A model generated the notes under the pieces. The model ran no database searches, was not told where the DNA came from, and saw only the letters and a program-made list of their open reading frames with translations. The position numbers and the translations under genes were made by a program. Shown here one piece after another: positions 18,059 through 50,416 of a DNA stretch of 64,000 nucleotides. The stretch is from positions 1 to 64,000 of the forward strand of contig NZ_CP101750.1 in NCBI RefSeq assembly GCF_026810505.1, written 5' to 3'. Every line of letters begins with the position of its first letter. The first letter of the stretch is position 1. Source of the DNA: Streptomyces sp. Je 1-369 (GTDB lineage: Bacteria; Actinomycetota; Actinomycetes; Streptomycetales; Streptomycetaceae).

Positions 18059-20074
18059 ATGCCCACAGGACCCCTGGCTCAGCACACCGCGGTGTGCCTG
18101 GTCGGCGCCGGCCCGCGCGGGTTCTCCGTGCTCGAGCGGATCTGCGCGCAGGAACGCAAGTCCCCGCTGTGGGAGCGGGTGAGCGTGCACGTCGTGGATC
18201 CCGCACCGCCCGGCGCGGGCCGGGTGTGGCGGCCCGCGCAGTCGCCGCACCTGCTGATGAACACCGTCGCCTCGCAGGTCACCGTCTACACCGACGACAG
18301 CGTCAGCATCCGCGGCCCGCTGGAGGAGGGGCCCAGCCTCTACGAGTGGGCCCGGGCGCTGGGCCGGGGCGCGCTGGCGCCCGGCCCCGCCACCCCGTGC
18401 GACGCCGATGTGCTGGGCGAGGCGCGGGCGCTGGGACCGGACAGCTATCCCACGCGCGCCCTGTACGGGCGGTATCTGGGCTGGGCGTTCGCGCAGGTCG
18501 TGGCGGACGCGCCGGCGCATGTGGTGATCCGTGTGCACCGGGTGCGGGCGGTGGCCCTCACGGACGAGGCCGAGGGCGGCGTCGAGGGCGCGGGCGAGGG
18601 GGCGGGGGCGGTGCGCGGGGCGGGTGCGCAGACGGTGGTGCTGGAGGACGGCACGCGGCTTGCGGGGCTGTCCGCGGTGGTGCTCGCGCAGGGGCACCTG
18701 CCCGTGCGGCCTGGTGAGCAGGAGGGGCGGCTGGCCCGGTTCGCCGCCCGGCACGGGCTGCTCTACGTCGCGCCGGCCAACCCCGCCGACGTGGACCTCT
18801 CCCCCATCGCGCCGGGCCAGGACGTGCTGCTGCGCGGTCTCGGCCTGAACTTCTTCGACTACATGTCGCTGCTCACCCAGGGCAGGGGCGGCCGCTTCGA
18901 GCGGGCCGGCAGGCGCCTGGTCTACCGGGCCTCGGGGCGCGAGCCGCGGCTGCACGCCGGGTCGCGGCGCGGTATCCCGTACCACTCCCGCGGTGACAAC
19001 GAGAAAGGCGCGTACGGCCGTTACCGGCCGCGGCTGCTGACCGCCGGGCACGTCGCGGCGCTGCGCGCGCCGGGCCGGGGCCCGCTGGGCTTTCGCAGCG
19101 ACCTGTGGCCGCTGATCTCCAAAGAGGTGCGGTGCGTGTACTACGAGGCGCTGCTGGCCGGGCGGGGCGTGGCGCCCGGGGTGGTGGCCCGGTTCGGGGC
19201 GGACTTTCTGGCCGCGGCGCCGGGGCGGGCCGAGGAGGGGGTGCTCGCGGCGGCCGGGATCGGTGCGCAGGCGCGCTTCGACTGGGAGGTGCTGGCCCGC
19301 CCGTACGGCTCGCAGGTCTTCGCCGATGCGGCGCAGTTCCGGTCCTGGCTGCGCGGCCACCTCGAGGAGGATGTGGCGCAGGCGCGGCGGGGCAATGTGC
19401 GCGGGCCGCTGAAGGCCGCTCTGGACGTGCTGCGCGACCTGCGCAACGAGATCCGGCTTGCCGTGGACCACGGCGGGCTGACGGGCGCCTCGCACCGCAG
19501 CGAGCTGGAGGGCTGGTACACGCCGCTCAACGCCTACCTGTCCATCGGGCCGCCCGCCGGGCGGGTGGAGGAGATGCTCGCGCTGATGGAGGCCGGGGTG
19601 CTCGATGTGGCTCTGCCCGGTATCCGCGTCACCGTCGCGGAGGGTTCAACCGGCGGGGAGGGGGCGGGGTTTGTGGGGTCCTCGGCGCTGGTGCCCGGCA
19701 TCCGGGTGCGGGCGTCGGCGCTGATCGAGGCCCGGCTGCCCGAGATGGACCTGCGCCGTACGGACGATCCGCTGCTGCGCCGTCTCCTCGCCTCGGGGCA
19801 GTGCCGTCCCTATCGCGTCCAGGGGCACGAGACGGGCGGTCTTGCCGTGACGCGGTCCTTCCATCTGCTGGATGCCGGCGGGGTGGCCCACCGGCGGCGC
19901 TTGGCCTATGGGGTGCCCACGGAGTCGGTGCACTGGGTGACGGCCGCCGGTATCAGGCCCGGGGTCGGGTCGGTGACGCTGGAGGACTCCGATGCCATCG
20001 CGGGGGCGGTGCTGGCGCTGCCCGCCCCGCCGCGGACGGTGCCGCGGCCCGGATGCGAAGGGGTGCAGTCGTGA
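18059..20074 (+). CDS. CreE/FzmM-like FAD-dependent aspartate N-oxygenase (nitrosuccinate-forming)
   Basis: 671 residues from the ATG at 18059, preceded by AAGGAG. An FAD-binding Rossmann motif is at residues 13-25 (CLVGAGPRGFSVLER), with the extended FAD/NAD(P)-binding fold seen in CreE-type enzymes. Downstream segments such as SPHLLMNTVASQVTVYTDDS and LLRGLGLNFFDYMSLLTQGR are characteristic of that group. CreE and FzmM oxidise L-aspartate in several steps to nitrosuccinate using NADPH and O2. The next gene overlaps by 4 bp and encodes the expected partner lyase, so the pair should deliver nitrous acid for N-N bond formation. The family call is from pattern recognition; the gene order makes it strong. 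Confidence 0.82.
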   Translation: MPTGPLAQHTAVCLVGAGPRGFSVLERICAQERKSPLWERVSVHVVDPAPPGAGRVWRPAQSPHLLMNTVASQVTVYTDDSVSIRGPLEEGPSLYEWARALGRGALAPGPATPCDADVLGEARALGPDSYPTRALYGRYLGWAFAQVVADAPAHVVIRVHRVRAVALTDEAEGGVEGAGEGAGAVRGAGAQTVVLEDGTRLAGLSAVVLAQGHLPVRPGEQEGRLARFAARHGLLYVAPANPADVDLSPIAPGQDVLLRGLGLNFFDYMSLLTQGRGGRFERAGRRLVYRASGREPRLHAGSRRGIPYHSRGDNEKGAYGRYRPRLLTAGHVAALRAPGRGPLGFRSDLWPLISKEVRCVYYEALLAGRGVAPGVVARFGADFLAAAPGRAEEGVLAAAGIGAQARFDWEVLARPYGSQVFADAAQFRSWLRGHLEEDVAQARRGNVRGPLKAALDVLRDLRNEIRLAVDHGGLTGASHRSELEGWYTPLNAYLSIGPPAGRVEEMLALMEAGVLDVALPGIRVTVAEGSTGGEGAGFVGSSALVPGIRVRASALIEARLPEMDLRRTDDPLLRRLLASGQCRPYRVQGHETGGLAVTRSFHLLDAGGVAHRRRLAYGVPTESVHWVTAAGIRPGVGSVTLEDSDAIAGAVLALPAPPRTVPRPGCEGVQS

Positions 20075-21510
20075 AGACGACGCCACGCGGCGACTCAGCG
20101 GCAGAGGATGCTTGCCCGGTGCAGCCGGATGCGGGGCTGCTCTCCCCGGTGCGGGTGGGTACGGCCGTGGAGGCCGCGGTCGGTGACGGGGCCTGGCTGC
20201 AGGCCATGCTGGACGCGGAGGCGGCCCTTGCCCGGGCGCAGGCGCGCATGGGCACGGTGCCCGCCGCGGCCGCGGAGGCGATCACCGCGGCCGCCCGGGC
20301 CGAGTACTTCGATGTGCGCGAGGTGGCGCTGGCCGCCCGGGCGACGGCCAACCCGGTGGTCGGCCTGGTGGCCGCGCTGACCGGGGTGGTCGCCCGCCGG
20401 GCGCCGGAGGCGGCCGAGTACGTGCACCGCGGCTCCACCAGCCAGGACGTCTTCGACACCGGCGCGATGCTGGTGGCCGCACGCGCCCTGCGTGTGATCG
20501 TCGCGGACCTGCGGGAGACGGCCGCGTCCCTGGCCGCGCTGGCCGGCGCCCACCGTGACACGGTGATGGCCGGGCGGACCCTGGCCCTGCACGCCGTGCC
20601 CACCACCTTCGGGCTGAAGGCGGCCGGCTGGCGCCAGCTGGTGCTGGAGGCCATCACGCGTCTGGAGCGGGTCGCCGGACAGTCGCTGGTCATCTCGCTG
20701 GGCGGGGCGGCCGGCACGCTGGCGGGCTACCTGCAGTACGCCGAGCAGGCCCCGGCAGGCTCCTTCGCGGGCCGCAGCGCCGCGCAGGTGGTGGAAGAGC
20801 TGGCCGAGGCGTTCGCCGCCGAGACCGGCCTGGCCCGGCCGGTGCTGCCCTGGCACGCCCTGCGCACGCCCGTCACCGACCTGGGGGCCGCGCTGGCGCA
20901 CACCGCGGGCGCCCTGGGCAAGATGGCGGCGGACGTGCAGGTCCTGGCCCGTACCGAGATCGGCGAGGTCGCCGAGCCCGCCGCCGAGGGGCGCGGCGCG
21001 TCCTCGGCGATGCCCCACAAGCAGAACCCCGTCCTGGCCACCCTGATCCGCTCGGCCGCCGTCCAGGTGCCCGCGCTCGGCGCGGTCCTGGCGCAGTGCC
21101 TGCCCGCCGAGGACGAGCGCTCGGCGGGGCTGTGGCATGCCGAGTGGCAGCCGCTGCGCGAGTGCCTGCGCCTGACCGGGGGCGCCGCCCACGCGGCCGC
21201 CGAACTGGCCGCCGGGCTGGTGGTGCATCCCGAACGGATGCGCGCCAACCTTGATCTGACGGGCGGCCAGGTCGTCTCGGAGCGGCTGGCCGCGTATCTG
21301 GCGCCCCGGCTCGGCAGGAGCGCGGCCAGGGAGCTCCTGGCCGGCGCCTCGCGGCAGGCGCGGGACACCGGGCGGCCGCTGGGGCAGGTCCTGGCCGAAC
21401 TGCCCGCCCTGGCGGGGGTGGTGAGCGGGCAGGAGCTGGCGCGGCTGCTCGATCCGCGGCACTACACGGGTGCGGCGGGGCCGCTGGTGGACCGCGCACT
21501 GCGGGGGTGA
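20071..21510 (+). CDS. CreD/FzmL-like nitrosuccinate lyase
   Basis: 479 residues starting with a GTG inside the preceding stop (GTGA). It belongs to the fumarase/aspartase superfamily: EYVHRGSTSQDVFDTG near residue 115, HTVMAGRTLALHAVPTTFG-like text near 165, and the signature SSAMPHKQNP at residues 311-320 with the catalytic Ser loop. Within the superfamily it is closest in style to 3-carboxy-cis,cis-muconate cycloisomerase/CreD proteins rather than PurB. CreD eliminates nitrous acid from nitrosuccinate, giving fumarate. A second, PurB-like superfamily member at 27464-28753 probably acts later on hydrazinosuccinate. Confidence 0.82.
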   Translation: MKTTPRGDSAAEDACPVQPDAGLLSPVRVGTAVEAAVGDGAWLQAMLDAEAALARAQARMGTVPAAAAEAITAAARAEYFDVREVALAARATANPVVGLVAALTGVVARRAPEAAEYVHRGSTSQDVFDTGAMLVAARALRVIVADLRETAASLAALAGAHRDTVMAGRTLALHAVPTTFGLKAAGWRQLVLEAITRLERVAGQSLVISLGGAAGTLAGYLQYAEQAPAGSFAGRSAAQVVEELAEAFAAETGLARPVLPWHALRTPVTDLGAALAHTAGALGKMAADVQVLARTEIGEVAEPAAEGRGASSAMPHKQNPVLATLIRSAAVQVPALGAVLAQCLPAEDERSAGLWHAEWQPLRECLRLTGGAAHAAAELAAGLVVHPERMRANLDLTGGQVVSERLAAYLAPRLGRSAARELLAGASRQARDTGRPLGQVLAELPALAGVVSGQELARLLDPRHYTGAAGPLVDRALRG

Positions 21511-21576: not shown

Positions 21577-22662
21577 ATGCCGCCACTGCCGCCCGCCCGT
21601 GTCGTCCGTGCCGTCGAAAGCGTGCGCGCCGCGCTGCAGAGCCTGACGCGCAGGCTCGCGCCCCCGCCGTTCGCGCTGCTCGAACTCGTCCAGGGCGCCA
21701 TGGTCAGCCAGGCGATCTACGTGGCCGCCGAACTGCGCGTCGCCGAGACCCTCCAGGACGGGCCGCTCACCCCGCAGCAGATCGCCGAGCGGGCCGGGGC
21801 GGATGCCGACGCGCTGCACCGTCTGCTGCGTCTCCTTGCGACCTACGGCATCTTCACCGAGCACAAGGACGGGCGGTTCGCGCTGACCCCGATGGCGCGG
21901 GCGCTGCTCAAGGACGCCCCGATGTCGATGTACGGGATAGCCCGGCTGATGGGCCACCCCATCCACTGGGAGGACTGGGGGCATCTCCTGGACGCGGTGC
22001 GCACCGGTGAGCCGAGCCTGCCCAAGCTGCGCGGGATGGGGGCCTTTGAGTACCTGGAGGCCAACGCCGAGTACGGGGCGGTCTTCACCGACGGGATGGG
22101 GGCGATGTCGGGCACGGAGACCGAACCGCTGCTGGCCGCCTACGACTTCGCGCGCTACGCCACGGTGGTCGACTTCTGCGGCGGCCGCGGCGATCTGCTG
22201 GCCGGGGTGCTGAAGAAGACGCCCGCCGCGCGCGGGATCCTCTCCGATCCCCGGGTGGGCACCAACGGCGCCGCGGGGTTCCTGGCCGAGCAGGGGGTGT
22301 CCGAGCGGTGCACGATCGCCGACGGCGGCCTGTTCGACGCGGTGCCGGCGGGCGGGGACGCGTACATCCTCAAGCACATCCTCCACGACTGGCCCGAGCC
22401 GCAGGCGCTGGAGATCCTGCGCAACGTCCGCAAGGCGATGAACCCCGGCGGGCGGCTCCTGGTGATGGAGATGGTCGTGCCCGACAAGGCCAACGGCCCG
22501 CACTCGGGCAAGCTGGTCGACCTGTGGCTGATGCTGCTGGTCGGCGGCAAGGAACGGACCCGCGCCCAGTACGCCGAACTCCTTGGCAGGGCCGGTTTCC
22601 AGCTGGAGCGGGTGGTGCAGACACCGGCGGCGATCTCGATCGTCGAGGCGAGCGCACACTGA
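21577..22662 (+). CDS. O-methyltransferase-like protein, candidate AlpH-type hydrazine-coupling enzyme
   Basis: 361 residues, same strand as the nitrous-acid genes with a 66 bp gap and CCGGAGGAATGTC before the ATG. It has the overall fold of aromatic polyketide O-methyltransferases: a dimerisation domain (LLELVQGAMVSQAIYVAAEL), then the Rossmann domain, and LHDW at 269-272 with the usual catalytic His270. The SAM-binding motif I, normally DVGGGxG, reads DFCGGRG at 199-205, with Cys201 in place of the first Gly. Motif II (GILSDPRVGTNG) is shortened relative to the usual LFDLP form. In kinamycin biosynthesis the O-methyltransferase-like protein AlpH couples glutamylhydrazine to the polyketide without SAM. 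The altered motif and the neighbourhood suggest the same role, although a genuine methyltransferase is not excluded. Confidence 0.7.
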   Translation: MPPLPPARVVRAVESVRAALQSLTRRLAPPPFALLELVQGAMVSQAIYVAAELRVAETLQDGPLTPQQIAERAGADADALHRLLRLLATYGIFTEHKDGRFALTPMARALLKDAPMSMYGIARLMGHPIHWEDWGHLLDAVRTGEPSLPKLRGMGAFEYLEANAEYGAVFTDGMGAMSGTETEPLLAAYDFARYATVVDFCGGRGDLLAGVLKKTPAARGILSDPRVGTNGAAGFLAEQGVSERCTIADGGLFDAVPAGGDAYILKHILHDWPEPQALEILRNVRKAMNPGGRLLVMEMVVPDKANGPHSGKLVDLWLMLLVGGKERTRAQYAELLGRAGFQLERVVQTPAAISIVEASAH

Positions 22663-22752: not shown

Positions 22753-24285
22753 TCAGGTGTCCTGCTTGTGCTGCTTGCGGGTGGTGCGCAGCGGCACCTC
22801 GCGGACCAGGAGCGCGGCCGCCAGGGCCAGGCCCGCGGCCAGCGACGCCAGCACGAACGCCCCCTGCACGCCCTGGGCGACGGCACTGCGGTACACGGTG
22901 CGCACGGGCGCACTGAGGCGGCTCATGCTGTCGGCGTCCAGGCGGGTGTCGTGCAGGGCGGTGGTGTGGGTGTGGCCGCTCATCACGTCGCGTACGCGGT
23001 GGTTGAACAAGGTGCCCATGACGGCGACGCCGACCGACTGGCCCAGGGTGCGGAAGAGGGTCATCGCGGCGGAGGCGACACCCACCTCGTGGGCGTCGAC
23101 GCTGTTCTGGGCGACGGTCATCACGTTCTGCCCCAGAAAGCCCATGCCGGCCCCCAGCAGGGCCATGAACAGGGCGGCGGCAAGGCGTGAGGTGCCGGTG
23201 CCCAGGTGTGAGAGCAGCAGGGTGCCGGTGAGCATCGCGGCCGAGCCGGTGATCTGGAGGATCTTGTAGCGGCCGGTGCGGGCGACGGTGCGCCCCGACA
23301 GCTGGGAGGCCAGGACCAGGGCGCCGAGCATCGGCAGCAGCAGCAGGCCGGAGCCGGTGGCGGAGACGCCGTGCACGGCCTGCTGGTAGAGCGGCAGATA
23401 CAGGACGGCGCCGAACATCACGAAGCCGTTGGTGAAGCTCAGGACGGCCATCAGGCAGAAGTTGCGCTCGCCGAACAGGTGCGGGGGCAGGACCGGTTCA
23501 AGCGCCCGGGACTGGGCGTGGACGAAGCCGGCCAGGGCCGCGGCGGACAGGGCGGCCAGGGTCACGATCGTGGCCGAGTTCCAGGCGTGTTCGACGCCGC
23601 CCCAGGTGACCACCAGCACGAAGGAGACGATGCACACGACCAGCAGCACCGCGCCCGCGTAGTCGATGTGGGCCTTCCTGCGCCGGCCGGTCACCCGCAC
23701 CAGGCGGGTGATCAGGGCCAGGGACAGCAGGCCGACGGGCAGGTTGACCCAGAACGCCCAGCGCCAGCCGGCCCAGTCGGTGAGGGAACCGCCGACCAGG
23801 GGGCCCACGACCATGGAGAACACCATGACGCTGGTGATCATGCCCTGGTAGCGGCCGCGTTCGCGCGGCGGGATCAGCTCGCCGATGACCGCCATCACAC
23901 CGACCGCGAGGCCTCCCCCGCCGAGCCCCTGCACGGTGCGCGCCGCGATCAGCTCGGCCATGTCCTGGGAGAGGCCGCACAGCAGCGACCCGGTCAGGAA
24001 CACCGACATCGCAACGATCAGCCACCGCTTGCGCCCGTACATGTCGCCGAGCTTGCCCCAGACGGGAATGGCGGCCGCGGCGGCCAGCGTGTAGGAGGTC
24101 ACCGCCCAGGACAGGTAGCCGGTGCCGCCCAGTTCGCCGGCGATGGTCGGCATCGACGTCGCCACGATGGTGGAGCCCAGCGAGGAGGGCAGCATCGCGA
24201 GGAGCAGGGGTATCAGCGCGAGGCGTACGCTGCGCGGCCCGGGGTCGCGCCGTGTCCCCTCGGCCTCGCCCGTCGGCGCGTTCAC
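22753..24285 (-). CDS. DHA2-type MFS drug exporter
   Basis: 510 residues from a GTG at 24285 with AAGGAGGAGCCC upstream. About 14 hydrophobic segments are visible, with the MFS motif A as GKLGDMYGRKRW and motif C-like GPLVGGSLTDWAGWRWAF, both typical of the DHA2 (EmrB/QacA) branch. These proton antiporters export antibiotics and confer self-resistance. It is followed at 26 bp by the multicopper oxidase on the same strand (oxidase upstream). It is probably the product exporter, alongside the MMPL protein. Confidence 0.88.
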   Translation of the reverse strand: MNAPTGEAEGTRRDPGPRSVRLALIPLLLAMLPSSLGSTIVATSMPTIAGELGGTGYLSWAVTSYTLAAAAAIPVWGKLGDMYGRKRWLIVAMSVFLTGSLLCGLSQDMAELIAARTVQGLGGGGLAVGVMAVIGELIPPRERGRYQGMITSVMVFSMVVGPLVGGSLTDWAGWRWAFWVNLPVGLLSLALITRLVRVTGRRRKAHIDYAGAVLLVVCIVSFVLVVTWGGVEHAWNSATIVTLAALSAAALAGFVHAQSRALEPVLPPHLFGERNFCLMAVLSFTNGFVMFGAVLYLPLYQQAVHGVSATGSGLLLLPMLGALVLASQLSGRTVARTGRYKILQITGSAAMLTGTLLLSHLGTGTSRLAAALFMALLGAGMGFLGQNVMTVAQNSVDAHEVGVASAAMTLFRTLGQSVGVAVMGTLFNHRVRDVMSGHTHTTALHDTRLDADSMSRLSAPVRTVYRSAVAQGVQGAFVLASLAAGLALAAALLVREVPLRTTRKQHKQDT

Positions 24286-24311: not shown

Positions 24312-25769
24312 TCATCTGATGTGCATCGTGGCCATCATGCCCCGCACACCGTGCTCGAACATGTGGCAGTGGTAGAGGTATCGGCCGCGGTAGCTGTCGA
24401 AGACGGCCTGGAGGCGGACGGTTTCGCCGGGGGCGAGGTGGATGGTGTCCTTCAGGCCGCTCTCGCCCGGCCCGGGGGGCCGGCCGGCGCGTTCCAGGAC
24501 GCGGAACTGCACCAGGTGCAGGTGGAAGTTGTGCTCGGCGCGGGCGTTGGCGTTGGTGACCGTCCAGATCTCGCTGGTGTTGAACTTGATCTGTGCGTCG
24601 ACGCGTTGGGGGTCGTACTCCTTCTCGTCGATGTAGGCGCCGGGGTGTTCGCCGCCCTCGTCCATGCGCAGCACCACCGTCCGCTCGGTGGCGGGGCGGG
24701 GCAGCGGCGGCAGGGTGCGCAGCCGGGCGGGTATGCGGCTGGGGTCGTGGGCGGTGCGCACCACGTCGAAGCGGAGTATCTCGCCGGTCTCCTCGGCGGG
24801 TCCGGTGCCGGTGGTGTTCTTCAGTACGACGCTGGTGCCCACCGGGTAGCGGGAGAAGTCGACGACGATGTCGGCGCGTTCGCCCGCGGACATCGCGATG
24901 TGGTCGGTGGTGTGGGGGGCGGTGAGCAGGCCGCCGTCGGAGCCGATCTGGGTGAGGGGGCTGTTGTCGGCCAGGCGCAGGTCGAAGCGGCGCTGGTTGG
25001 AGGCGTTGAGCAGGCGCAGCCGGTACTTGCGGGCGGCGACCTGGAAGTAGGGGTAGGGCACGCCGTTGGCCAGGAGGGTGTTGCGGGCGCGGTCGCCCAT
25101 GGCGTAGGCGAGTTGGTTGCCGTCGTCGAAGCGGGCGTCGCGCAGGGCGATGACGACTTCGTAGCGGCCCCGGGGCAGGGGCAGGGCGCGTTCGGTGGCG
25201 TCGGTGAGCAGGTAGGAGCCGGACAGGCCGCGGTAGACGTTCTCCGCTTCGAGGTGGTGGGCGTGGTCGTGGAACCACAGCGGGGCGTGCGGCTGGCGGT
25301 TGGGGTAGTGGTAGACGCGGTCCGTGCCGGGTTCGATGACGTCCATGGGGTCGCCGTCGCTGTCGGGGCGTACCGCGGCGCCGTGCAGGTGGACGGCGGT
25401 GGGGACGGTGAGGCGGTTGCGCTGGCGGATGACGACGGGGTGGTGGGCGCGGGCTCTGATGACGGGGCCGGGGAAGTGGCCGTCGTAGGTGAGGACGTCG
25501 GTGGGCGGGCCGGGCAGGATCTGGGCGCGGGCGGGCTTCATGGTCATCACGTACACGTCGGATGTTCCGGTGCGGCCCGCGGGTTTCTTCTCGGGGAGCA
25601 GGGGCATGGGGCGCTGGAACTTGGCCACGGTCCCCGGTGGCGCGGGGGCGTTGGCGGTGGTGGGCTGGGCGCGGACGTGGGCGGCGAGCAGCGGGGTGAG
25701 GCCGGCGCCGGTGAGCGCCGCTCCGCCGGTGGCGAGCGTGACGCTCAGGGCACTGCGTCGGGTGATCAT
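24312..25769 (-). CDS. TAT-exported multicopper oxidase
   Basis: 485 residues with a twin-arginine signal (MITRRSALSVTLATGG). All four copper-binding segments are present: HLHG (His127, His129), WFHDHAHH (His167, His169), HNFHLHLVQF and HCHMFEHGVRGMM (467-479, with Cys468, His473 and axial Met478). The arrangement fits three-domain CotA/bilirubin-oxidase/phenoxazinone-synthase-like laccases, which oxidise phenols with O2. Export places it outside the cytoplasmic membrane. In a cluster making polyphenolic quinones it could perform late oxidation or phenol coupling, or lower product toxicity. It is probably co-transcribed with the MFS gene. Confidence 0.88.
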   Translation of the reverse strand: MITRRSALSVTLATGGAALTGAGLTPLLAAHVRAQPTTANAPAPPGTVAKFQRPMPLLPEKKPAGRTGTSDVYVMTMKPARAQILPGPPTDVLTYDGHFPGPVIRARAHHPVVIRQRNRLTVPTAVHLHGAAVRPDSDGDPMDVIEPGTDRVYHYPNRQPHAPLWFHDHAHHLEAENVYRGLSGSYLLTDATERALPLPRGRYEVVIALRDARFDDGNQLAYAMGDRARNTLLANGVPYPYFQVAARKYRLRLLNASNQRRFDLRLADNSPLTQIGSDGGLLTAPHTTDHIAMSAGERADIVVDFSRYPVGTSVVLKNTTGTGPAEETGEILRFDVVRTAHDPSRIPARLRTLPPLPRPATERTVVLRMDEGGEHPGAYIDEKEYDPQRVDAQIKFNTSEIWTVTNANARAEHNFHLHLVQFRVLERAGRPPGPGESGLKDTIHLAPGETVRLQAVFDSYRGRYLYHCHMFEHGVRGMMATMHIR

Positions 25770-26195: not shown

Positions 26196-26957
26196 TCAGC
26201 CGGTGCCGAGTCGGAAGCCGACGCCGCGTACGGTGACGACCCAGCCGTTGCCGCCGAGTTTTCCGCGCAGGCTGCTGACGTGGGTGTCGATGGTGCGGCG
26301 CGACCAGGAGTCGCCCCACACCTGTTGCAGGAGCTGCTTGCGCGGGATGACCGTGTCGGGCTGGGCGGCCAGCAGGCACAGCAGGTCGAATTCCTTGCGG
26401 GTCAGGGCGACGGGCTCGTCGTCGACGGTGACCTGGCGGGAGTCGACGTCGATGCGCAGCCGGCCCAGGTCCATCTCCCGGGCCGCGGCGGGCTGCCAGC
26501 GGGTGCGGCGCATGACCGCTTCGATACGGGCGATGAGTTCGCGCAGCCCGTAGGGCTTGGTGACGTAGTCGTCGGCGCCCGCGTGCAGGCCGAGCACGCA
26601 GTCGAGTTCGCAGCGGCGGGCGGTGACGATGATGATGGGGATGCGGCTGACCTCGCGGATGGCGCGGCACACCTCCAGGCCGTCCAGGTCGGGCAGGTCC
26701 AGGTCGAGGAGGACCAGTTCGGCGTCCTCGTAGGCGTGCAGGGCCGCTTGGCCGTGCCGGACGCCGACGGGGTCGTGGCCGTGGCGGCGCAGCTGGGCGG
26801 TGAGGGAGCCGGCCAGGGCGGCGTCGCCGTCCACCACCAGGATGCGCTGGCCGGTGGGTGCGCGGGCCGGGGCCGGGGTGCCCGGCTCGGTGGGGCGGGC
26901 GGTCTCGGGCAGGGCGGTCAAGGGCTCCAGCAGTGCCGGTGACGGTATGTGGCTCAT
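26196..26957 (-). CDS. Orphan OmpR-type response regulator
   Basis: 253 residues with a 35-residue Pro/Ala-rich leader. The receiver domain has Asp43/Asp45 (VVDGDA), the phosphoacceptor Asp85 (LVLLDLDLPDLDG), Thr112 and Lys134 (YVTKPYG). The winged helix at about 160-250 ends with the typical RRTIDTHVSSLRGKLGG and VRGVGFRLG. No histidine kinase gene is adjacent, so the signal must come from elsewhere, or the protein works without phosphorylation as many cluster-situated regulators do. It could control the neighbouring exporter and oxidase. Confidence 0.9.
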   Translation of the reverse strand: MSHIPSPALLEPLTALPETARPTEPGTPAPARAPTGQRILVVDGDAALAGSLTAQLRRHGHDPVGVRHGQAALHAYEDAELVLLDLDLPDLDGLEVCRAIREVSRIPIIIVTARRCELDCVLGLHAGADDYVTKPYGLRELIARIEAVMRRTRWQPAAAREMDLGRLRIDVDSRQVTVDDEPVALTRKEFDLLCLLAAQPDTVIPRKQLLQQVWGDSWSRRTIDTHVSSLRGKLGGNGWVVTVRGVGFRLGTG

Positions 26958-42981: not shown

Positions 42982-42982
42982 G

Positions 42983-43927
42983 TCAGTGGGTCCGCTCCGC
43001 GTAGTCCTTGGCATGGCCCAGCGTGGCGCGGCTGTTGGTGGACAGCGCGCTGTGCACGTAGGCGCGGGCGTCGGCGGCGGTGGCCCGGTCGCCGAGGATC
43101 TTGGCGATGTTGGCGGTGTTGATCGACACGGTGTGCTGGGAGGCGGCCTCGGTGGTGCCCCGGCCGGTGTCGGTGAAGGTCCAGTAGCCGGTGTGCAGGG
43201 TCATCAGGGCGGGCAGGGTGACCTGCTTGTAGGCGATTTTGCGGGTGTCCAGGGCGACCCGGTAGGACTTGGTGGTGTGCACCGAGCCGTCCTTGGCGCG
43301 GGTGTCCATCTCCAGGATCTGCAGGCCGGGGGCGGGTTCTTCGAAGCGTACGGTGGCCACGTGCGGCAGCCGTTCGGGCCAGCGCCCGGCCTCGTTGACG
43401 AAGTCGAAGGCGTCCTTGGCGGCGCCGTTGATCTCCACGGTGTCGGTGAAGGAGAAGACCAGGTCCTCGCGCTCGGCGGCGTGGGCGTGTTCGACGTTGT
43501 CCTTGAGGGCGGCCAGTTCCGCGGTGCTGTTGGTGTCCACGGCCCTCTCGATCCACCGCAGGTCCGCCGGGTCGTCGTCGATGGCCCGGTAGTCGTGCAG
43601 CAGCCGCACCCGGGAGGTGTCCTGGCCCTGCGGCTCGACGATCCAGGTGCCGCCCATCGCGGCGACGGGCGCGGTGGTGACCTCCTGGCGGAAGACGATG
43701 CGCAGGCCCTCGGGGTCCAGGGTGCGGCGCGAGGTCCAGTTCTTGGGCTCGCCGTTGGCGGTGGCCCAGATGCGGATGCGCTCCTGGTGCTCGCCCGTCT
43801 CCTCGCGCTCGACGTGGATGGTGGGCGGGAAGATCTGCGGCCAGTGGCTCACGTCCGCCAGCAGGCGGTAGACCGTGGCCGCGGGCGCGCCGATGGTGAT
43901 CTCGTGCTCGACCTGACGCGTCGTCAT
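42983..43927 (-). CDS. Didomain aromatase/cyclase (JadD/LanL type)
   Basis: 314 residues from the ATG at 43927 with GAGGAGCACC upstream. Two SRPBCC (START-like) domains: residues 1-145 beginning RQVEHEITIGAPAATVYRLL and 155-300 beginning DTVEINGAAKDAFDFVNEAG. This didomain form closes and aromatises the first ring of C9-reduced decaketides, as in angucycline and actinorhodin pathways. It lies directly after the ketoreductase gene. Confidence 0.9.
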   Translation of the reverse strand: MTTRQVEHEITIGAPAATVYRLLADVSHWPQIFPPTIHVEREETGEHQERIRIWATANGEPKNWTSRRTLDPEGLRIVFRQEVTTAPVAAMGGTWIVEPQGQDTSRVRLLHDYRAIDDDPADLRWIERAVDTNSTAELAALKDNVEHAHAAEREDLVFSFTDTVEINGAAKDAFDFVNEAGRWPERLPHVATVRFEEPAPGLQILEMDTRAKDGSVHTTKSYRVALDTRKIAYKQVTLPALMTLHTGYWTFTDTGRGTTEAASQHTVSINTANIAKILGDRATAADARAYVHSALSTNSRATLGHAKDYAERTH

Positions 43928-43989: not shown

Positions 43990-44775
43990 TCAGAAGTTGC
44001 CGAGTCCGCCGCAGACGTTGAGGGCCTGGGAGGTGATGGAGGCGGCGGTGTCGGAGGCGAGGTAGCCGATGAGGCCGGCGACTTCCTCGGGGGTGCTGTA
44101 GCGGCCCAGGGGGATCTTGGCCTGGAACTTGGTGAGGATCGCCTCCTCGGTGGTGTCGTAGGCGGCGGCGTAGCCCTGGCGCACGCGCTGGGCCATGGGG
44201 GTCTCCACGTAGCCGGGGCATACGGCGTTGACAGTGATGCCGCTGGGCGCGAGCTCGTTGCCGAGCGCCTTGGTGAAGCCGACGACGCCGTGTTTGGAGG
44301 CGGAGTAGGGGGCGCCGAGCACGACGCCCTGCTTGCCGGCGGTGGAGGCGACGTTGATGATGCGGCCGCGGCCGCCCTCCTGCATGCGGCCGGTGGTCAG
44401 GACGGCGCGGGTCATGCGGAAGACGCTGTTGAGGTTGGTGTCGATGACGTCGTCCCACAGTTCGTCGGTGAGCTGCGCGGTCACCCCGCCGCCGGACCGG
44501 CCGGCGTTGTTGACCAGCACGTCCACGGGCCCGAACCGCTCCACGGCGGCGGCCACGAACGCGGTGACGGAGGCGCCGTCGCGCACGTCGAGGACCTGGC
44601 CCTCGGCCTCCAGGCCGTCGTTGCGCAGGGACTTGACGGTGGCGACGACGTCGCTGTCGGTGCGGGCGCCCAGGAAGATTCGGTGGCCCTGCTGGGCGAG
44701 CAGGCGGGCGGCGGCCAGGCCGATGCCGCTGGTGGCGCCGGTGACCAGGGCGAGGCGGGGGGCGGTCTGTGTCAT
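43990..44775 (-). CDS. ActIII-type C9 polyketide ketoreductase
   Basis: 261 residues of the short-chain dehydrogenase fold. The NADPH motif TGATSGIG is at 12-19; the catalytic tetrad is Asn114, Ser144, Tyr157 and Lys161 (YSASK). The length and the ending ITSQALNVCGGLGNF match ActIII-family ketoreductases that reduce the C9 carbonyl of the nascent polyketide. The gene follows acp by 13 bp. Confidence 0.92.
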   Translation of the reverse strand: MTQTAPRLALVTGATSGIGLAAARLLAQQGHRIFLGARTDSDVVATVKSLRNDGLEAEGQVLDVRDGASVTAFVAAAVERFGPVDVLVNNAGRSGGGVTAQLTDELWDDVIDTNLNSVFRMTRAVLTTGRMQEGGRGRIINVASTAGKQGVVLGAPYSASKHGVVGFTKALGNELAPSGITVNAVCPGYVETPMAQRVRQGYAAAYDTTEEAILTKFQAKIPLGRYSTPEEVAGLIGYLASDTAASITSQALNVCGGLGNF

Positions 44776-44788: not shown

Positions 44789-45058
44789 TCAGGCCACGCG
44801 GGCGGCGGCCAGCCGCTCGTTGACGGTGTGGATCAGTTCCCTCGGGGTCAGGTCGTCGCTCAGCGTGTCGTCGTCCAGCGCGATGCCGTACTCGCGCTCG
44901 ATGCAGCCGCCGGTCTCCAGCAGGGCCAGCGACTCATAGCCCAGCAGGCCGAAGGCGGTGTCCAGGATGTCGTCGTCCAGCGGGGCGGCCTCGTCGGCGC
45001 CCGCGGCCTCGACGAGGATGCGCGTGAGGTCGTCCAGGGTGAAGGGCTGCTCGCTCAT
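44789..45058 (-). CDS. Acyl carrier protein of the type II PKS
   Basis: 89 residues. The phosphopantetheine attachment Ser43 sits in LLGYESLALLE, the form typical of aromatic PKS carrier proteins. Acidic helices flank it. It sits between KS-beta and the ketoreductase gene, the usual minimal PKS order. Confidence 0.95.
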   Translation of the reverse strand: MSEQPFTLDDLTRILVEAAGADEAAPLDDDILDTAFGLLGYESLALLETGGCIEREYGIALDDDTLSDDLTPRELIHTVNERLAAARVA

Positions 45059-45131: not shown

Positions 45132-46343
45132 TCACTGTCCGGCGCGCACGACCATCGCGGAGTTGAACCCGCCGTGGCCGCGGGCCAGCACCAGCGCGGT
45201 GCGCAGCGCGGCCGGGCGCGCCTGGTACAGGACCAGGTCCAGGTCGTACTCGGGACAGGGGTCGATGTGGACGGTGGGCGGGATGAGGCCGGCGCGCATC
45301 GCCAGGAGCGCGCAGGCCACGTCCAGGGGCGCGGCGCCGGAGTGCAGGCGGCCGGTCATCGTCTTGGGCACGGTGACCGGGACGCGGCCCGGGCCGAACA
45401 CCTCGCTGATCGCCGCGGCCTCGGCCCGGTCCAGGTCGGGTACGCCCGCGCCGTCGGCGAAGACCACGTCGATGTCGCCGGGCGCGGCGGCGGCGTCCTG
45501 CAGTGCGGTGCGCATCGCGGTGCGCAGGGTGGAGGGGCGGCCGCTGTGCGGGGGCGGGTCGATGGTCGCTCCGTAGCCGGCGAGTTCGCCGTAGAGGGTG
45601 GCGCCGCGGGCGCGGGCGGCCTCGGTGGGTTCCAGGGTGAGCAGGGCGCCGCCCTCGCCGGGCACGTAGCCGCGGGCGTCGCGGTCGAAGGGCAGGTAGG
45701 CGCGGGTGGGTTCGTCGCTGTCGCTCATGCGGCCGCCGGCGAGCTGGGCCACCCAGCCCCAGGGGCACACCGAGGCGTCCACGGCGCCGCCCACGATCAG
45801 CGGGGTGCCCTTGCGGATGAGGCGGCGGGCCTGCGCAAGGGCGTCCAGGCCGCCGGCCTGGTCGCTGACGACGACGCCGCTGGGCCCCTTCATGCCGTGC
45901 CGGATGGAGATCTGGCCGCTGTTGACCGCGTAGAACCAGGCGAAGGACTGGTAGGCGGAGACGAACTGGCTGCCCTTGGCCCACAGTTTCTGCAGTTCGT
46001 CCTGGCCGAACTCGAAGCCGCCGGCGTGGCTTGCGGTGACCACCCCCATGTCCAGCGGGTCGAAGGCGGCCACGTCCACCCCGGCGTCGGCCAGCGCCCA
46101 GTCCGCGGCGGCCAGCGAGAGCCGGGTGACGCGGTCGGTCTGCGGCAGCAGCCGGCCCGGCAGGTGCTCCGCCGCCTCGAACCCGGGGATCTCCCCGGCC
46201 AGTTGGGCGGGGTAGCTCGAGGGGTCGAAGCGGGTGATGCGGCCGATGCCGCTCTTCGCGCCGAGGGTGGCCGCCCAGTAGTCGGCCGCGCCCAGGCCGT
46301 TGGGGGCGGCGATGCCCATGCCGGTGACCGCGACGGCAGTCAT
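45132..46343 (-). CDS. Ketosynthase beta / chain length factor
   Basis: 403 residues, starting in a four-base overlap with KS-alpha. Thiolase-like ketosynthase fold, but the active-site Cys is replaced by Gln162 ([12 protein letters not shown]), the defining decarboxylase Gln of chain length factors. It dimerises with KS-alpha and sets chain length, expected to be a decaketide for angucyclines. Confidence 0.95.
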
Positions 46344-47611
46344 ACGGTGCTCCTTCGCGCCGGGGCGAGCACCATCGCGCTCTGGAATCCGCCGAAGCCG
46401 CTGCCGACCGTCAGGACCGCATCGACCTGCTGGTCGCGGGCCGTCAACGGCACGTAGTCCAGGTCGCATTCGGGGTCGGGGGTGTGCAGGTTGGCGGTCG
46501 GCGGCACCACGTCGTACTCCATGGCCAGCGCGGAGGCGGCGATCTCGATGGAGCCGATGGCGCCCAGCGAGTGGCCCACCATCGACTTGATGGAGCTGAC
46601 CGGGGTGCGGTAGGCGTGCTCGCCCAGCGCCCGTTTGAACGCGGCCGTCTCGTGCCGGTCGTTCTGCTTGGTGCCCGAGCCGTGGGCGTTGATGTAGTCG
46701 ATCTGCTCGGGGATCATCCGTGCCTCGTCCAGGGCCAGGCGGATGGCCTCGGCCATCTCCGCGCCGTCCCGGCGCAGTCCGGTCATGTGGTAGGCGTTGG
46801 AGCGGGTGGCGTAGCCGGCGATCTCGGCGTAGATGTGGGCGCCGCGGCGCCGGGCGCTCTCGAGCTCCTCCAGGACGAAGAAGGCGGCGCCCTCGCCCAG
46901 CACGAAGCCGTTGCGGGTGCTGTCGAAGGGCCGTGAGGCCTGTTCGGGTGCGTCGTGGCGCGGCGTGGTCGCCTTGATCGCGTCGAAGCACGCCATGGTG
47001 ATCGGGGAGATCGGCGCGTCGGACGCCCCGGCGACCATGACGTCGACGGAGCCCTCGCGCACCAGCTCCACCGCGTAGCCGACCGCGTCGATGCCCGAGG
47101 TGCAGCCGGTGGAGACGACCGTGGAGGGGCCTTCCGCGCCGACCGCCCAGGCCACCTCCGCCGCGAAGGAGCTGGGCACCAGGTAGTTGTACAGGTGCGG
47201 CACCGCGTAGCGGTGGTCGACCAGGTCCAGGCGGCCGCCGTCGCTGACGACGCGGTATTCGTCGTCCAGGCCCATGGTGGCGCCCACCGCGCTGCCCACG
47301 ACCACGCCGATGCGGTGCGGGGCGTGCTCGCTCAGCTCGGCGCCGCTGTCCTGGACGGCGGCGCGGGCGGTGACCACGGCGAACTGGGCGGCGCGGTCCA
47401 TGCGCCGCACCTCCTGCGGGCTCAGCCCGTGCTCCAGGCCGCAGAAGTCGGCCTCGGCGGCCACCTTGGAGCGGAAGGGGGCGGGGTCGAAGAAGGTGAT
47501 GCCGCGGGTCGCGGTGCGGCCCTCGCTGATGAGCTGCCAGAACTCCTTGCGGCCCAGGCCGCCGGGGGCCAGGACCTCCAGGCCGGTGATGACGACGCGG
47601 CGCTGCGTCAT
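46340..47611 (-). CDS. Ketosynthase alpha of the type II PKS
   Basis: 423 residues. Catalytic Cys170 ([12 protein letters not shown]), His310 (INAHGSGT) and His347 ([10 protein letters not shown]) are present. It condenses malonyl-ACP units with KS-beta. The gene order cyclase, KS-alpha, KS-beta, ACP, KR, aromatase equals that of jadomycin, landomycin and other angucycline clusters. Confidence 0.96.
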
Positions 47612-47937
47612 GCGCCGGCCTCCCAGGAGTAGAAGCGCTGGGCCATCGCGTCGGCCGGGGAGCGCCAGGTGGCCGGGTCGTAGGCCTCGATGTGCGGCTT
47701 GAGGTCGTCGCTGATCCGCACGAAGCGGGCATCGTCCTTGGCGCGTTCGATGCGGGCGCCTCCGTCGTCGGAGTCGAAGTCCTGGAGGTGGAAGTACAGG
47801 CCGCGGTAGGCGAAGAGCTGGCGGCGGCGGGTGCCCATGCGGTGGGGCATGTCGGTGGCGTCGAAGTCGGTGAACAGTTCGGCGACGCTGCGGCTGGAGT
47901 CGATCGCCATCCGGGCCACGATCAGCGTGCTGTGCAT
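47608..47937 (-). CDS. TcmI-like polyketide cyclase (JadI/LanF type)
   Basis: 109 residues of the ferredoxin-like dimeric cyclase family: [40 protein letters not shown] and a C-terminal [16 protein letters not shown]. In angucycline clusters this protein closes the fourth ring. Start and stop overlap neighbours, so it is tightly coupled to KS-alpha. Confidence 0.92.
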
Positions 47938-48026: not shown

Positions 48027-48722
48027 TCACGCGCCGGCGGCGCGGCTGTGGATCACCCGGTAGGAGTTCCAGTCGCTCTCGGTCTTCAGGGCGTTGATGC
48101 GCGCCTCGGACTTCTGGCGGGCCTCGGACTGCCGCGCGGTGGCCTGGTGGCGGTGGGCGTCGTAGTCGGCCTTGCTCGCCCACTGGGAGTAGACGACGAC
48201 GAAGGGGCCTTCCAGGAAGCGGGCGCGCAGGCCCTTGAAGACGCTGTGCGAGCGGTAGCCGTCGACCTCCAGGAGCCAGGACTGGCCCTCGCCGAGTTCG
48301 GCGATCAGCTCGTCCTGGTTGCTCTGGGAGACCTTGAAGATCTCGATGACGGTGTGGTCGTCGCGGTCGGGCGAGACCTCGGTGGCCTCGCCCTGGGAGG
48401 GGTGGCGCTGGGTATGGACGATCTCGCTCTGCAGCAGCCGGATCGAGGTGGTGATGTCCTGGAAGACGGGCAGCGTGCGGTGCTTGAACTCCTCGCCCGC
48501 ATACCGCTTCTCCAGGTCCTCGCCGCTGCGCCACTGGATGAAGTTGGCGGTGCCGGGGCTGTCCTGTCCGGCGTGCACGGTGGAGGAGATCCAGCCGTCG
48601 AACGCCGCGGTGTCGACGATCTTCCGCATCTCCTGGATCAGCTTGTCCTGCTTCTCCGGCTGGTCGGTGGTGAACAGGTTGAGGACGGTCAGGTGCTTGT
48701 CCTGGGTGGAGATGTAGGGCAT
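48027..48722 (-). CDS. JadG/AlpJ/GilOII-like ring-opening oxygenase
   Basis: 231 residues with two antibiotic-biosynthesis-monooxygenase (ABM) domains, about 8-110 and 120-225; each has an aromatic strand ending in a Trp motif ([18 protein letters not shown] and [20 protein letters not shown]). Length and wording match the JadG/GilOII/AlpJ group as I know it. In jadomycin, gilvocarcin and kinamycin pathways these proteins cleave the angucyclinone B ring; AlpJ leads to ring contraction to the benzofluorene. Its presence next to a hydrazine cassette strongly suggests a diazobenzofluorene-like product. A simple anthrone oxygenase is the alternative. Confidence 0.8.
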
Positions 48723-48940: not shown

Positions 48941-50416
48941 TCAGGCGGCGGGGCCGAACCAGCGCTCCAGGGCGGCGGGCAGGGGCAGCGCGTCCGGGTC
49001 GGGCGCGATCCAGGCGATGTAGCCGTCGGGGCGCAGCAGGATCGCCTCGGCGGCGGGCAGGGTGGGGCCGGGGCGTGCGGTGACGATGTCGACGCGGTCC
49101 GACCAGGCCTTGGCGGCGGCCGGCAGCGCGCTGTCGGCGCCGAGGTCGAGCAGTACGCCGCGGCCGGTGTGCAGCAGGGCGTGGACGCGGGTGGGCCGGC
49201 CCTCGCAGGTCAGGTCGCCGTCCTGAAGGCGCCGGCCGAGCAGGGGGTGCTCCCCCGCGCCGACGTCGTGGCGGATGTCCAGGCCGGTGACCATGCCGAC
49301 CAGGTGGCGCTGGACCGAGTCGTAGCGGGTGAGTTCGGTGAAGACGTCGAGCAGCGGGGTGATCTCCTCGCCGCCGAGGTAGAGGATGCGCTGGGCCAGG
49401 GTGTTGGTCAGGATGCGGGCGCCGACCGGGTGGCGTTCGCTGTGGTAGGTGTCCAGCAGGGTGTCGGGGGCCAGGTCCTTGAGGACGAGGGCGAGTTTCC
49501 AGCCGAGGTTGACCGCGTCCTGCACGCCGGCGCTCATGCCCTGGGCGCCGATGGGCAGGTGGATGTGTGCGGCGTCGCCGGCCAGGAACACCCGGCCGTG
49601 CCGGTACCGCTCGGCCTGTCGGCTCACGTCGGTGGTCGAGCTCACCCACAGCGGGGTGGCCGCGTGGATGTCCTCGCCCGACAGCTTCTGGAAGGTGTCG
49701 GCGACCTCGTCGAAGGTGATCGGCTCGGTGCTCTTGCGCAGCGGCTCGCTGCGGTCGTAGTAGATGATGCGGCAGCGGTCCGGGCCCAGCGGCAGCACCA
49801 TGATCATGCCGCCGGGTACCCGTTCCCCGGCGAAGCGGGGCCGCAGCCGCACCCCGCTGATGTCGGCGAAGCGCAGCTCGATGGCCGGTTCGGTGCCGGG
49901 GAAGTCGATGCCGGCGGCGGCGCGCACCTGGCTGCGGGCGCCGTCGCACCCGATGACGTACCGGGCGCGCAGTTCCTGGCCGCCGTCCTGTGTCCCGGTG
50001 CCGCTCGTGTGCAGGGTCACCCCGTGCTCGTCCTGGCCGAGGCCGGTGACCTCCACCGAGCGGCGGATGCGGGCGCCCTGTTCGGTGGCGTGGCCGGCCA
50101 GCATCGCCTCGGTGCGGGACTGGGGGATGCCGCGTGCGCCGTAGGAACCGCCGCTGAGCACCTGGTAGTCCAGCGGTACGCCGCCGAAGTGCCCGCCGGG
50201 GATGGTGTCGACCTCGCCGAGGCGGGTCAGCAGTCCGCGCTGTGCGAATTCCTCGATGGTGCGCGCGGAGAAGCCGAGGGCGCGTGACTGCCGCATCGGT
50301 TCGGCGAGCCTGTCGAGCACGAGAACGGAAATTCCGTGCTGGCCCAACTCACCGGCGAGCATAAGGCCGGTGGGTCCTGCACCTACGATGATCACGTCCG
50401 CGTCATAATTGTCCAT
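48941..50416 (-). CDS. FAD-dependent aromatic hydroxylase C
   Basis: 491 residues from the ATG at 50416 (MDNYDADVIIVGAGPTGLML). The DG motif is VIGCDGARSQVRAAAG and the GD motif GRVFLAGDAAHIHLPIGAQG; thioredoxin-like C-terminal domain present. Sequence style is closest to hydroxylase A (GHFGGVPLDY, GARGIPQSRTEA). It is upstream of the ring-opening oxygenase in the same direction, so may head the PKS operon. It probably hydroxylates the angucyclinone before ring cleavage, like the AlpK/JadF group, but the assignment among the five hydroxylases is open. Confidence 0.87.
   Translation of the reverse strand: MDNYDADVIIVGAGPTGLMLAGELGQHGISVLVLDRLAEPMRQSRALGFSARTIEEFAQRGLLTRLGEVDTIPGGHFGGVPLDYQVLSGGSYGARGIPQSRTEAMLAGHATEQGARIRRSVEVTGLGQDEHGVTLHTSGTGTQDGGQELRARYVIGCDGARSQVRAAAGIDFPGTEPAIELRFADISGVRLRPRFAGERVPGGMIMVLPLGPDRCRIIYYDRSEPLRKSTEPITFDEVADTFQKLSGEDIHAATPLWVSSTTDVSRQAERYRHGRVFLAGDAAHIHLPIGAQGMSAGVQDAVNLGWKLALVLKDLAPDTLLDTYHSERHPVGARILTNTLAQRILYLGGEEITPLLDVFTELTRYDSVQRHLVGMVTGLDIRHDVGAGEHPLLGRRLQDGDLTCEGRPTRVHALLHTGRGVLLDLGADSALPAAAKAWSDRVDIVTARPGPTLPAAEAILLRPDGYIAWIAPDPDALPLPAALERWFGPAA

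Follow-up and report, generated by a model that had tools for sequence, protein, structure and literature searches.

Organization of the locus

The window analyzed here is the whole 64,000-nucleotide stretch formed by bases 1-64000 of Streptomyces sp. Je 1-369, whose genome is a single contig of 8,820,026 bp. It holds a gene cluster, probably of the diazobenzofluorene type, in which a nitrite-forming pair, a nitrogen-nitrogen (N-N) bond cassette, a type II polyketide synthase (PKS) and an operon for sulfate activation occur together. A preliminary description had taken the N-N cassette and the angucycline-type PKS for one diazobenzofluorene-type cluster, and this was borne out, since the six cassette genes, CreD and CreE, AlpH, AlpJ and the PKS were all found. 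The parts it named are open, high-GC3 genes at the positions it gave (Table 1), while AlpH, a multicopper oxidase (24312-25769) and the position within a terminal inverted repeat (TIR) had been overlooked. Genes were called with a codon-usage script, and starts are therefore approximate.

The left chromosome end is the reverse complement of the right end, with 0 mismatches over 160,307 bp (1-160307 against 8659720-8820026). The cluster lies inside this exact TIR and is thus present twice per chromosome. By eye, the first 240 bases of the window show apparent GC hairpin-like repeats resembling Streptomyces telomeres.

The probable left edge of the cluster is a SARP/BTAD-type regulator gene (16512-17198). 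On the right it continues beyond the window as far as about 76 kb, and relatives of most of the genes there sit in related clusters. Rightward extension had been proposed as a search for glycosyltransferase, sulfotransferase and epoxide hydrolase genes; an epoxide-hydrolase-type protein and a sulfotransferase were found, and no glycosyltransferase was seen. Pfam scans from 18059 to about 83 kb, with three small genes beyond 79 kb outside the scan, detected neither glycosyltransferase nor deoxysugar genes, and the region contains a single ketosynthase-family pair. A second ketosynthase/chain length factor (KS/CLF) pair, the feature linked to a propionate (non-acetate) starter, was not found in the region. 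A sugar-free, acetate-started product is therefore the simplest reading. Rfam and tRNA scans of the window returned zero matches.

Nitrite-forming pair and N-N cassette

The CreE- and CreD-like nitrous-acid genes listed previously are both present, as a NAD_binding_9 protein and a close match to the solved CreD structure. The ferredoxin, large unknown protein, amidase, glutamine synthetase (GS)-like ligase, PurB-like lyase and GNAT protein of the same list together form the complete KinI-KinN cassette, six genes in one minus-strand run from 34032 to 27040 with gaps of -17 to +82 bp. This order, with the unknown as a 656-aa protein, recurs at other loci.

KinJ/FzmP has been reported as a new family of heme enzymes that convert aspartate and nitrite to hydrazinosuccinate together with the ferredoxin KinI (PMC12154649). 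In an alignment of the 656-aa protein with 60 relatives, residues C489, R518, M519, H525, H562, R572 and R591 were at least 97% conserved. These correspond to KinJ C468, R497, M498, H504, H541, R551 and R570 (positions from PMC12154649) by a constant offset of +21, on which the match rests. KinJ N501 corresponds to N522, taken from the sequence of the window protein, and KinJ K356 would map to H377, adjoining K378. The former unknown is thus a predicted KinJ-type heme N-N synthase that keeps the reported ligand positions. Apart from the TIR copy, no KinJ-type paralogue was found in the genome. Relatives of the 656-aa protein occur at 62 loci among 84,980 genomes scanned. The nearest full-length ones, 87% identical in S. 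atriruber and 71% in Streptomyces sp. CNH099, lie in loci that share the gene order of the present cluster. Seven Streptomyces plasmids also carry a relative, and the cluster thus belongs to a broad family.

In phylogenetic trees the lyase and the ligase grouped with their cassette orthologues, with support of 89/92 and 100/100, respectively. The lyase is 69-82% and the ligase 61-79% identical to these orthologues, against 28-36% (n = 7, one being the cluster's CreD) and 28-32% (n = 4) for other homologues of the same genome. Each tree used 18 of the 52 cassette orthologues found, two weak partial GS matches (L247, L248) were left out of the ligase tree, and the outer branches are long, yet the identity gap is large. 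Assignment of the two enzymes to primary purine or nitrogen metabolism was rejected on this separation from the genome's other homologues. The phylogenetic placement that would have contradicted the preliminary description thus did not occur for these two of the three enzymes it named (lyase, ligase and GNAT).

Polyketide genes and the coupling enzyme AlpH

A type II PKS and an AlpJ-type ring-contraction oxygenase are both present. Family matches established the KS, CLF, acyl carrier protein, ketoreductase, aromatase and cyclase of the minimal PKS recognized earlier, and the suspected ring-opening oxygenase is an AlpJ-like ABM protein. Adjoining creE-creD is the gene for AlpH, the published enzyme coupling glutamylhydrazine to the polyketide (PMC10477347). 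Features specific to AlpH are CxGxG instead of GxGxG, L252, a K266-H267-H270-D271 site, M174, M177, V314, W317 and L318 (PMC10477347), and by eye the protein encoded at 21577-22662 keeps the equivalents of all of these. The presence of AlpH joins the N-N cassette and the PKS, the two halves of the earlier hypothesis. At E<=1e-90 this genome has a single AlpH (two TIR copies). In several relatives (L190, L192, L185, L187 and L188) a second AlpH-like protein, 47-52% identical to the window AlpH, adjoins a sulfotransferase/CMD pair.

Sulfate activation and sulfotransferase

Two A-ring FAD oxygenase genes, cysC, cysD, cysN and genes for a binding protein, an ATPase and a permease follow one another on one strand with gaps of -4, +52, -4, -1, -13, +19 and -14 bp, which suggests a single transcript for the A-ring oxygenases and the cys/ABC genes. 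Neither cysH nor sulfite reductase was found in the cluster cys operon, while both stand next to cysC-cysD-cysN in the genome's operon at 6.95 Mb. The cluster operon would thus be able to make 3'-phosphoadenosine 5'-phosphosulfate (PAPS) and unable to reduce it. The sulfotransferase (64056-64769) has by eye the PAPS-site-like motifs GxGRTGT and RDxxxWYxS, and its best solved relatives are PDB 9kf1 (162 bits) and then 8y9p, or SgdX2 (145 bits). No sulfatase was recognized among the Pfam-scanned cluster genes.

Elsewhere in the genome, at about 7.0535-7.0578 Mb (L203:3541-7759), a gene for a 660-aa fusion of a CreE-type NAD_binding_9 domain with an adenosine 5'-phosphosulfate (APS) kinase precedes cysD and cysN; an O-methyltransferase and a P450/AMP-binding/carrier protein are encoded nearby. 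The genome thus has a further operon for PAPS synthesis, which may belong to a different biosynthetic cluster.

Distribution and linkage of the sulfation genes

Among 392 Streptomyces genomes (this one included), the sulfotransferase occurred at 60% identity or above in eight, the next best match being 42%, and AlpH occurred at E<=1e-90 in 16, one of them (G254) at 52% identity only. The sulfotransferase was present in 8/16 AlpH-positive and 0/376 AlpH-negative genomes (Fisher 1e-12). Both genes lay on one contig within 50 kb in five of the eight genomes and on different contigs of drafts in the other three. A sulfotransferase of 57-94% identity was likewise found in 31 of 50 genomes bearing a KinJ-type gene, with a 42% match only in one and no match at E<=1e-30 in 18. 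These 50 genomes derive from the 62 KinJ-type loci after 12 with few cluster genes at the locus were dropped, although one of the 12 (L042) holds a PKS and a sulfotransferase. The 31 include four Salinispora. In Salinispora vitiensis the sulfotransferase gene lies between a homologue of the hydrolase and homologues of the two A-ring oxygenases, and would be about Lom9 or Lom10 when counted from Lom29/Lom30. In a tree, 22 cluster sulfotransferases, including the Salinispora lomaiviticin-type one, formed one clade (100/100) against 19 others, a split that is partly built in because the 19 were picked below 50% identity.

The sulfotransferase is accompanied by the Lom6-type A-ring hydrolase. Every one of the 21 sulfotransferase-positive genomes searched carried this hydrolase at 67% identity or above. 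None of 10 distinct sulfotransferase-negative genomes (13 entries, three listed twice) did so, their best matches reaching 41-44%. Eleven stretches from other genomes contained cysC, and in 10 of them the Lom6-type hydrolase gene lay 104-380 bp from it. Among 34 control loci, each covering 1.5 kb either side of cysD/cysC and mostly representing the best CysD copy per genome (including this genome's own copies), cysC was found in 32 and the hydrolase in none. Hydrolase and CysD also adjoin by coordinates in three more drafts (G210, G034 and G038); the CysD gene next to the hydrolase appears as two overlapping pieces in draft G210/G007 (C141:46533-47298). Of 37 sulfotransferase-positive genomes (two of the 37 entries are one genome, and many are drafts), nine had CysD and the sulfotransferase on one contig no more than 35 kb apart. 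In none of the eight AlpH-positive, sulfotransferase-negative genomes did a contig carry CysD less than 200 kb from AlpH; in three of them CysD was on other contigs of a draft. The sulfate-activation operon, singled out earlier as a difference from kinamycin, is therefore no oddity of this strain and forms part of a recurrent sulfation module.

In a tree of 42 CysD sequences, the 12 cluster-linked ones required six label changes, at least five of them by well-supported branches. The linked sequences comprised a pair from Kibdelosporangium and 'Rhodococcus rhodnii', a group of four Streptomyces, a group of three, and singles from this genome, S. mexicanus and S. coelicoflavus. The linked S. mexicanus CysD sits near another copy from the same contig, and two of the 12 labels are weaker, namely S. 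wedmorensis (contig edge) and S. mexicanus (other contig than the sulfotransferase). Read most plainly, the tree suggests repeated acquisition of a dedicated PAPS supply by an old sulfotransferase. The CysD copies and sulfotransferase of JOAA01000024.1 (L073), a record labelled Rhodococcus rhodnii NRRL B-16535 in a 12.4-Mb assembly, group with Kibdelosporangium, and that label may be wrong.

Proposed pathway and alternatives

Taken together, the results favor, with a probability of about 0.75, a complete diazobenzofluorene (kinamycin/lomaiviticin-family) cluster that is duplicated in the TIR and has a dedicated sulfation branch. The gene set is observed, whereas the chemistry is predicted throughout, on the basis of characterized relatives and, for the sulfate step, of genomic association. 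CreE and CreD would release nitrite from aspartate, and the KinJ-type heme enzyme with its ferredoxin would combine nitrite and aspartate into hydrazinosuccinate. The GNAT protein and lyase would then give acetylhydrazine, from which ligase and amidase would form glutamylhydrazine. The PKS, cyclases and AlpJ would supply the benzofluorene, to which AlpH would couple the glutamylhydrazine half, the hydrazine subsequently being freed and oxidized to the diazo group. The A-ring would be remodelled by the oxygenases at 59056-62003 and by the SDR, NmrA and Lom6-type hydrolase proteins right of the window, and CysN-CysD-CysC would supply PAPS to the sulfotransferase for sulfation of an A-ring-derived hydroxyl.

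Several points weigh against this reading. The strain is without a known metabolite, and neither kinamycins nor lomaiviticins are known to carry sulfate. The sulfotransferase has many relatives (1211 at E<=1e-40, of which the best 120 were listed), most of them without known context, and many of the genomes added in the extended comparison were chosen for having a sulfotransferase match. Loss, and not just gain, may account for label changes on the CysD tree, and conversion by the resident CysD copy of a genome could pass for recent capture. In S. atriruber (4 kb fetched), the cysC-bearing exception, the hydrolase does not adjoin, and in the present window cysC is about 12 kb from it. Lastly, no cys operon was found in the stretches fetched for the sulfotransferase-positive clusters of CNH099 (whose stretch stops at a contig end), S. 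jeddahensis, S. uncialis, S. vitiensis, Actinomadura WMMA1423 and Actinoallomurus.

Since the kinamycins and lomaiviticins are not known to carry sulfate, either a transient, activating sulfation or as yet undescribed sulfated congeners are implied. Most likely, sulfate would activate an A-ring hydroxyl as a leaving group; retention of the sulfate in the product is the alternative. Sulfate esters leave readily, and curacin biosynthesis (CurM) provides a precedent for activating sulfation. The A-rings of fluostatin and lomaiviticin have been proposed to be dehydrated after epoxide opening (PMC4506494). Acyl esters of fluostatin, whose acyl groups Lom6 and FlsH hydrolyse, are lost spontaneously via a quinone-methide-like intermediate leading to dimers (PMC5970136). 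On these grounds activating sulfation after the Lom6-type hydrolase is preferred. We tentatively propose that activating sulfation is a cryptic step of diazobenzofluorene pathways, probably that of lomaiviticin too. After the Lom6-type hydrolase has freed an A-ring hydroxyl, the conserved sulfotransferase would sulfate it, and loss of the sulfate would drive a dehydration or quinone-methide step that underlies unsaturation of the A-ring or dimerization. Selection for this step would have led the clusters to capture a PAPS-making operon on several independent occasions.

A stable sulfated diazobenzofluorene, in which a last tailoring step leaves sulfate on a phenol or the A-ring where kinamycin has acetyl groups, is possible but doubtful. 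It would suit a dedicated PAPS supply without cysH, a sulfotransferase with PAPS-site-like motifs and the lack of a sulfatase among the Pfam-scanned genes. However, the sulfotransferase clade includes the lom-matching Salinispora cluster, whose products are not known to carry sulfate, and the literature search results contained no sulfated family member.

Sulfation might also serve self-protection, a sulfated phenol blocking quinone-methide formation or reductive activation until export. In acyl-fluostatins, spontaneous elimination requires a free C6 hydroxyl and dimerization the C7 hydroxyl (PMC5970136), and the hydrolase adjoining cysC in relatives is of the Lom6 type; nevertheless, the scanned genes include no recognizable sulfatase to reverse such a block, and we regard this explanation as unlikely.

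Little credence is likewise given to a plain kinamycin cluster with kinamycin as its product, which the shared core genes and a TIR location as in S. ambofaciens (PMC12181624) would suit. The window AlpJ is about 60% identical to the AlpJ of PDB 5f9p, while the best Streptomyces relatives reach 76-77%, so that this is not the alp cluster itself; the additional sulfation genes and the multicopper oxidase also speak against kinamycin. PDB 5f9p is the S. ambofaciens AlpJ. Judged on AlpJ, the genes are not near-identical alp orthologues, and a search for the S. ambofaciens alp cluster by AlpJ in 392 Streptomyces genomes from a larger group reached at best 77%. The cluster therefore appears to be a new member of the diazobenzofluorene family distinct from the known kinamycin cluster, and the earlier suggestion that the product may be new gains support from AlpJ and from the sulfation module.

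Very unlikely is an unrelated sulfur-assimilation operon located here by chance: the window CysD is indeed closest to that of S. atriruber and to the genome's other copies, and the gene order is that of the operon at 6.95 Mb, but the cluster operon lacks cysH and sulfite reductase, the linked copies adjoin the same hydrolase (10/11 stretches against 0/34 other loci) despite being scattered on the CysD tree, and CysD accompanies the sulfotransferase (9/37 within 35 kb) and not AlpH in negative genomes (0/8 within 200 kb).

As antitumour leads that damage DNA, kinamycins and lomaiviticins are under study, and neither their late A-ring steps nor their dimerization is settled. The constant company of sulfotransferase and Lom6-type A-ring hydrolase in the genomes searched, with PAPS operons adjoining the hydrolase, points to a sulfation step, and many relatives share a sulfate-attaching module for which the known products do not account. 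No sulfation step in the kinamycin/lomaiviticin family was described in the titles and abstracts listed by the literature searches, although lom cluster papers may list the gene. The present cluster adds an apparently sugar-free member to a rare family, in two identical copies. KinIJ (PMC12154649) and AlpH (PMC10477347) have been described in published work, and it is the recurrent sulfation module that makes the cluster a variant within a known family.

Regulators and accessory genes

The regulators noted earlier, namely a BTAD/SARP-type protein, two StrR/ParB-like proteins and an extracytoplasmic function (ECF) sigma factor, are all present. By eye, the StrR/ParB-like proteins (15347-16135 and 52193-52930) share a PEWSDRA...TGLS.KT motif, and the ECF sigma factor (37791-38666) is presumably ECF41-like, given its length and neighbours. 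The multicopper oxidase (24312-25769) could be a phenol-coupling or diazo-forming oxidase. A universal partnership with the sulfotransferase was considered and dropped, as its closest relative (68%) is in the G097 cluster, which lacks such a sulfotransferase. Because, in addition, no multicopper oxidase was found in the fetched S. vitiensis stretch, no role is claimed for it. Many relatives do have a distant multicopper oxidase (28-32%) in the vicinity of their cys genes or sulfotransferase.

Table 1. Predicted genes of the cluster and its surroundings, in chromosomal order; positions above 64000 are genome coordinates right of the window.
Predicted product	Position	Strand	Evidence or remark
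StrR/ParB-like regulator	15347-16135	+	Shared motif; no Pfam match; true start perhaps further upstream
SARP/BTAD-type regulator	16512-17198	-	BTAD, 157 bits; relatives in other clusters
CreE/Alp2F-type flavin monooxygenase (predicted Asp to nitrosuccinate)	18059-20074	+	NAD_binding_9, 129 bits
CreD/Alp2G-type nitrosuccinate lyase	20119-21510	+	579 bits to CreD, PDB 5xny
AlpH, SAM-independent OMT-like; predicted coupling of glutamylhydrazine to polyketide	21577-22662	+	361 aa; 514 bits to PDB 8h3t
MFS exporter	22753-24285	-	
Multicopper oxidase	24312-25769	-	Twin-arginine-type leader and copper motifs (by eye); 68% relative in G097 cluster
OmpR-type response regulator	26196-26957	-	
KinN/FzmQ-type GNAT (predicted acetylation of hydrazinosuccinate)	27040-27480	-	Pfam match; synteny
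KinM/FzmR-type lyase (predicted release of acetylhydrazine)	27464-28753	-	Domain match; tree
KinL/FzmN-type GS-like ligase (predicted acetylhydrazine onto glutamate)	28836-30332	-	Domain match; tree
KinK/FzmO-type amidase (predicted to give glutamylhydrazine)	30336-31742	-	
KinJ/FzmP-type heme hydrazine synthase (predicted Asp + nitrite to hydrazinosuccinate)	31739-33709	-	656 aa; no Pfam/NCBIfam match
KinI-type 4Fe-4S dicluster ferredoxin partner	33706-34032	-	
Carboxymuconolactone-decarboxylase-family protein	34769-35221	-	
MMPL exporter	35393-37495	-	
ECF sigma factor	37791-38666	+	
Alpha/beta hydrolase	38674-39438	-	
FAD aromatic hydroxylase	39792-41387	-	
FAD aromatic hydroxylase	41437-42981	-	
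Aromatase/cyclase	42983-43927	-	
Ketoreductase	43990-44775	-	
Acyl carrier protein	44789-45058	-	
Chain length factor	45132-46343	-	Ketosynthase-family match
Ketosynthase alpha	46340-47611	-	Ketosynthase-family match
Polyketide cyclase	47608-47937	-	
AlpJ B-ring-opening oxygenase (ABM protein)	48027-48722	-	298 bits to PDB 5f9p
FAD oxygenase	48941-50416	-	
SnoaL-like protein	50634-51059	+	
PNPOx-like protein	51089-51505	-	
StrR/ParB-like regulator	52193-52930	-	Pfam: weak HTH only
Sulfonate-type ABC permease	53416-54303	-	
Sulfonate-type ABC ATPase	54290-55078	-	
Sulfonate-type substrate-binding protein (NMT1-like)	55098-56210	-	Relatives annotated 'aliphatic sulfonate' binding protein
CysN, sulfate adenylyltransferase GTPase subunit	56198-57523	-	
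CysD, sulfate adenylyltransferase small subunit	57523-58470	-	TIGR02039, 448 bits
CysC, APS kinase (PAPS-forming)	58467-59003	-	
A-ring FAD oxygenase (Lom16/Alp1S-like)	59056-60549	-	By position in Salinispora cluster; 70-74% to relatives including S. vitiensis
A-ring FAD oxygenase (Lom17/Alp1V-like)	60546-62003	-	By position
TAP-like alpha/beta hydrolase	62230-63675	-	Relatives (53-60%) in several clusters
Sulfotransferase	64056-64769		Sulfotransfer_4, 212 bits
CMD protein			Listed between sulfotransferase and SDR
SDR	65700-66428		
Rieske ferredoxin			Listed between SDR and 67019-67738
Peptidase C26/amidotransferase-type protein	67019-67738		
FAD oxygenase			Listed between 67019-67738 and NmrA
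NmrA protein	69932-70645		
Lom6/Alp1U-type alpha/beta hydrolase	70703-71479		
Amine oxidase, mycothiol-nitroreductase-like protein, ABC-2 exporter	Right of 71479, to about 76 kb		

Comparison with known systems

Fosfazinomycin is a phosphonate-containing product, and a pathway of that kind was rejected as no phosphonate-synthesis gene was among the Pfam hits; the N-N enzymes do correspond to FzmL-FzmR of the fosfazinomycin (fzm) literature. Delivery of hydrazine on a glutamyl carrier has been published (PMC6133997). For fluostatin (fls), cassette homologues are reported in the producer Micromonospora rosaria SCSIO N160 (PMC6470958). Another strain of this species, DSM 803, has a KinJ-type protein that is 58% identical, but it gave no sulfotransferase match at E<=1e-30. 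SgdX2, the second-best solved relative of the sulfotransferase, acts in another pathway, that of sungeidine, and a reference cited by PMC11677658 has 'activating sulfotransferase' as the term for it in its title. Plasmid-borne diazobenzofluorene-like Streptomyces clusters with deoxysugar genes were observed on NZ_CP107979.1 (L188/L189) and NZ_CP109001.1 (L185/L186), and both include a gene annotated 'enediyne antibiotic chromoprotein', possibly a carrier or sequestering protein.

By literature, the kinamycin (alp/kin) clusters of S. ambofaciens and S. murayamaensis share CreD/E, the KinI-N cassette, AlpH, AlpJ, the PKS set and the A-ring genes with the present cluster, and the S. ambofaciens cluster likewise lies in a TIR (PMC12181624). 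The clusters differ in that the window AlpH scores 514 bits to PDB 8h3t against 800 to itself, and in that the alp1A-1X functions named in the consulted passages of PMC4506494 include no PAPS operon, sulfotransferase or multicopper oxidase. The lomaiviticin (lom) system, viewed through S. vitiensis (L060), differs from the present cluster in its deoxysugar genes and second KS/CLF pair, neither of which was found here, and in that no cys operon was found in the 80 kb fetched from S. vitiensis. Nevertheless, the two share the cassette, AlpH and AlpJ, the A-ring oxygenases (73% and 65%), the Lom6-type hydrolase (71%) and the sulfotransferase (58%), and the gene positions in S. vitiensis fit Lom29, Lom30 and Lom32-34.

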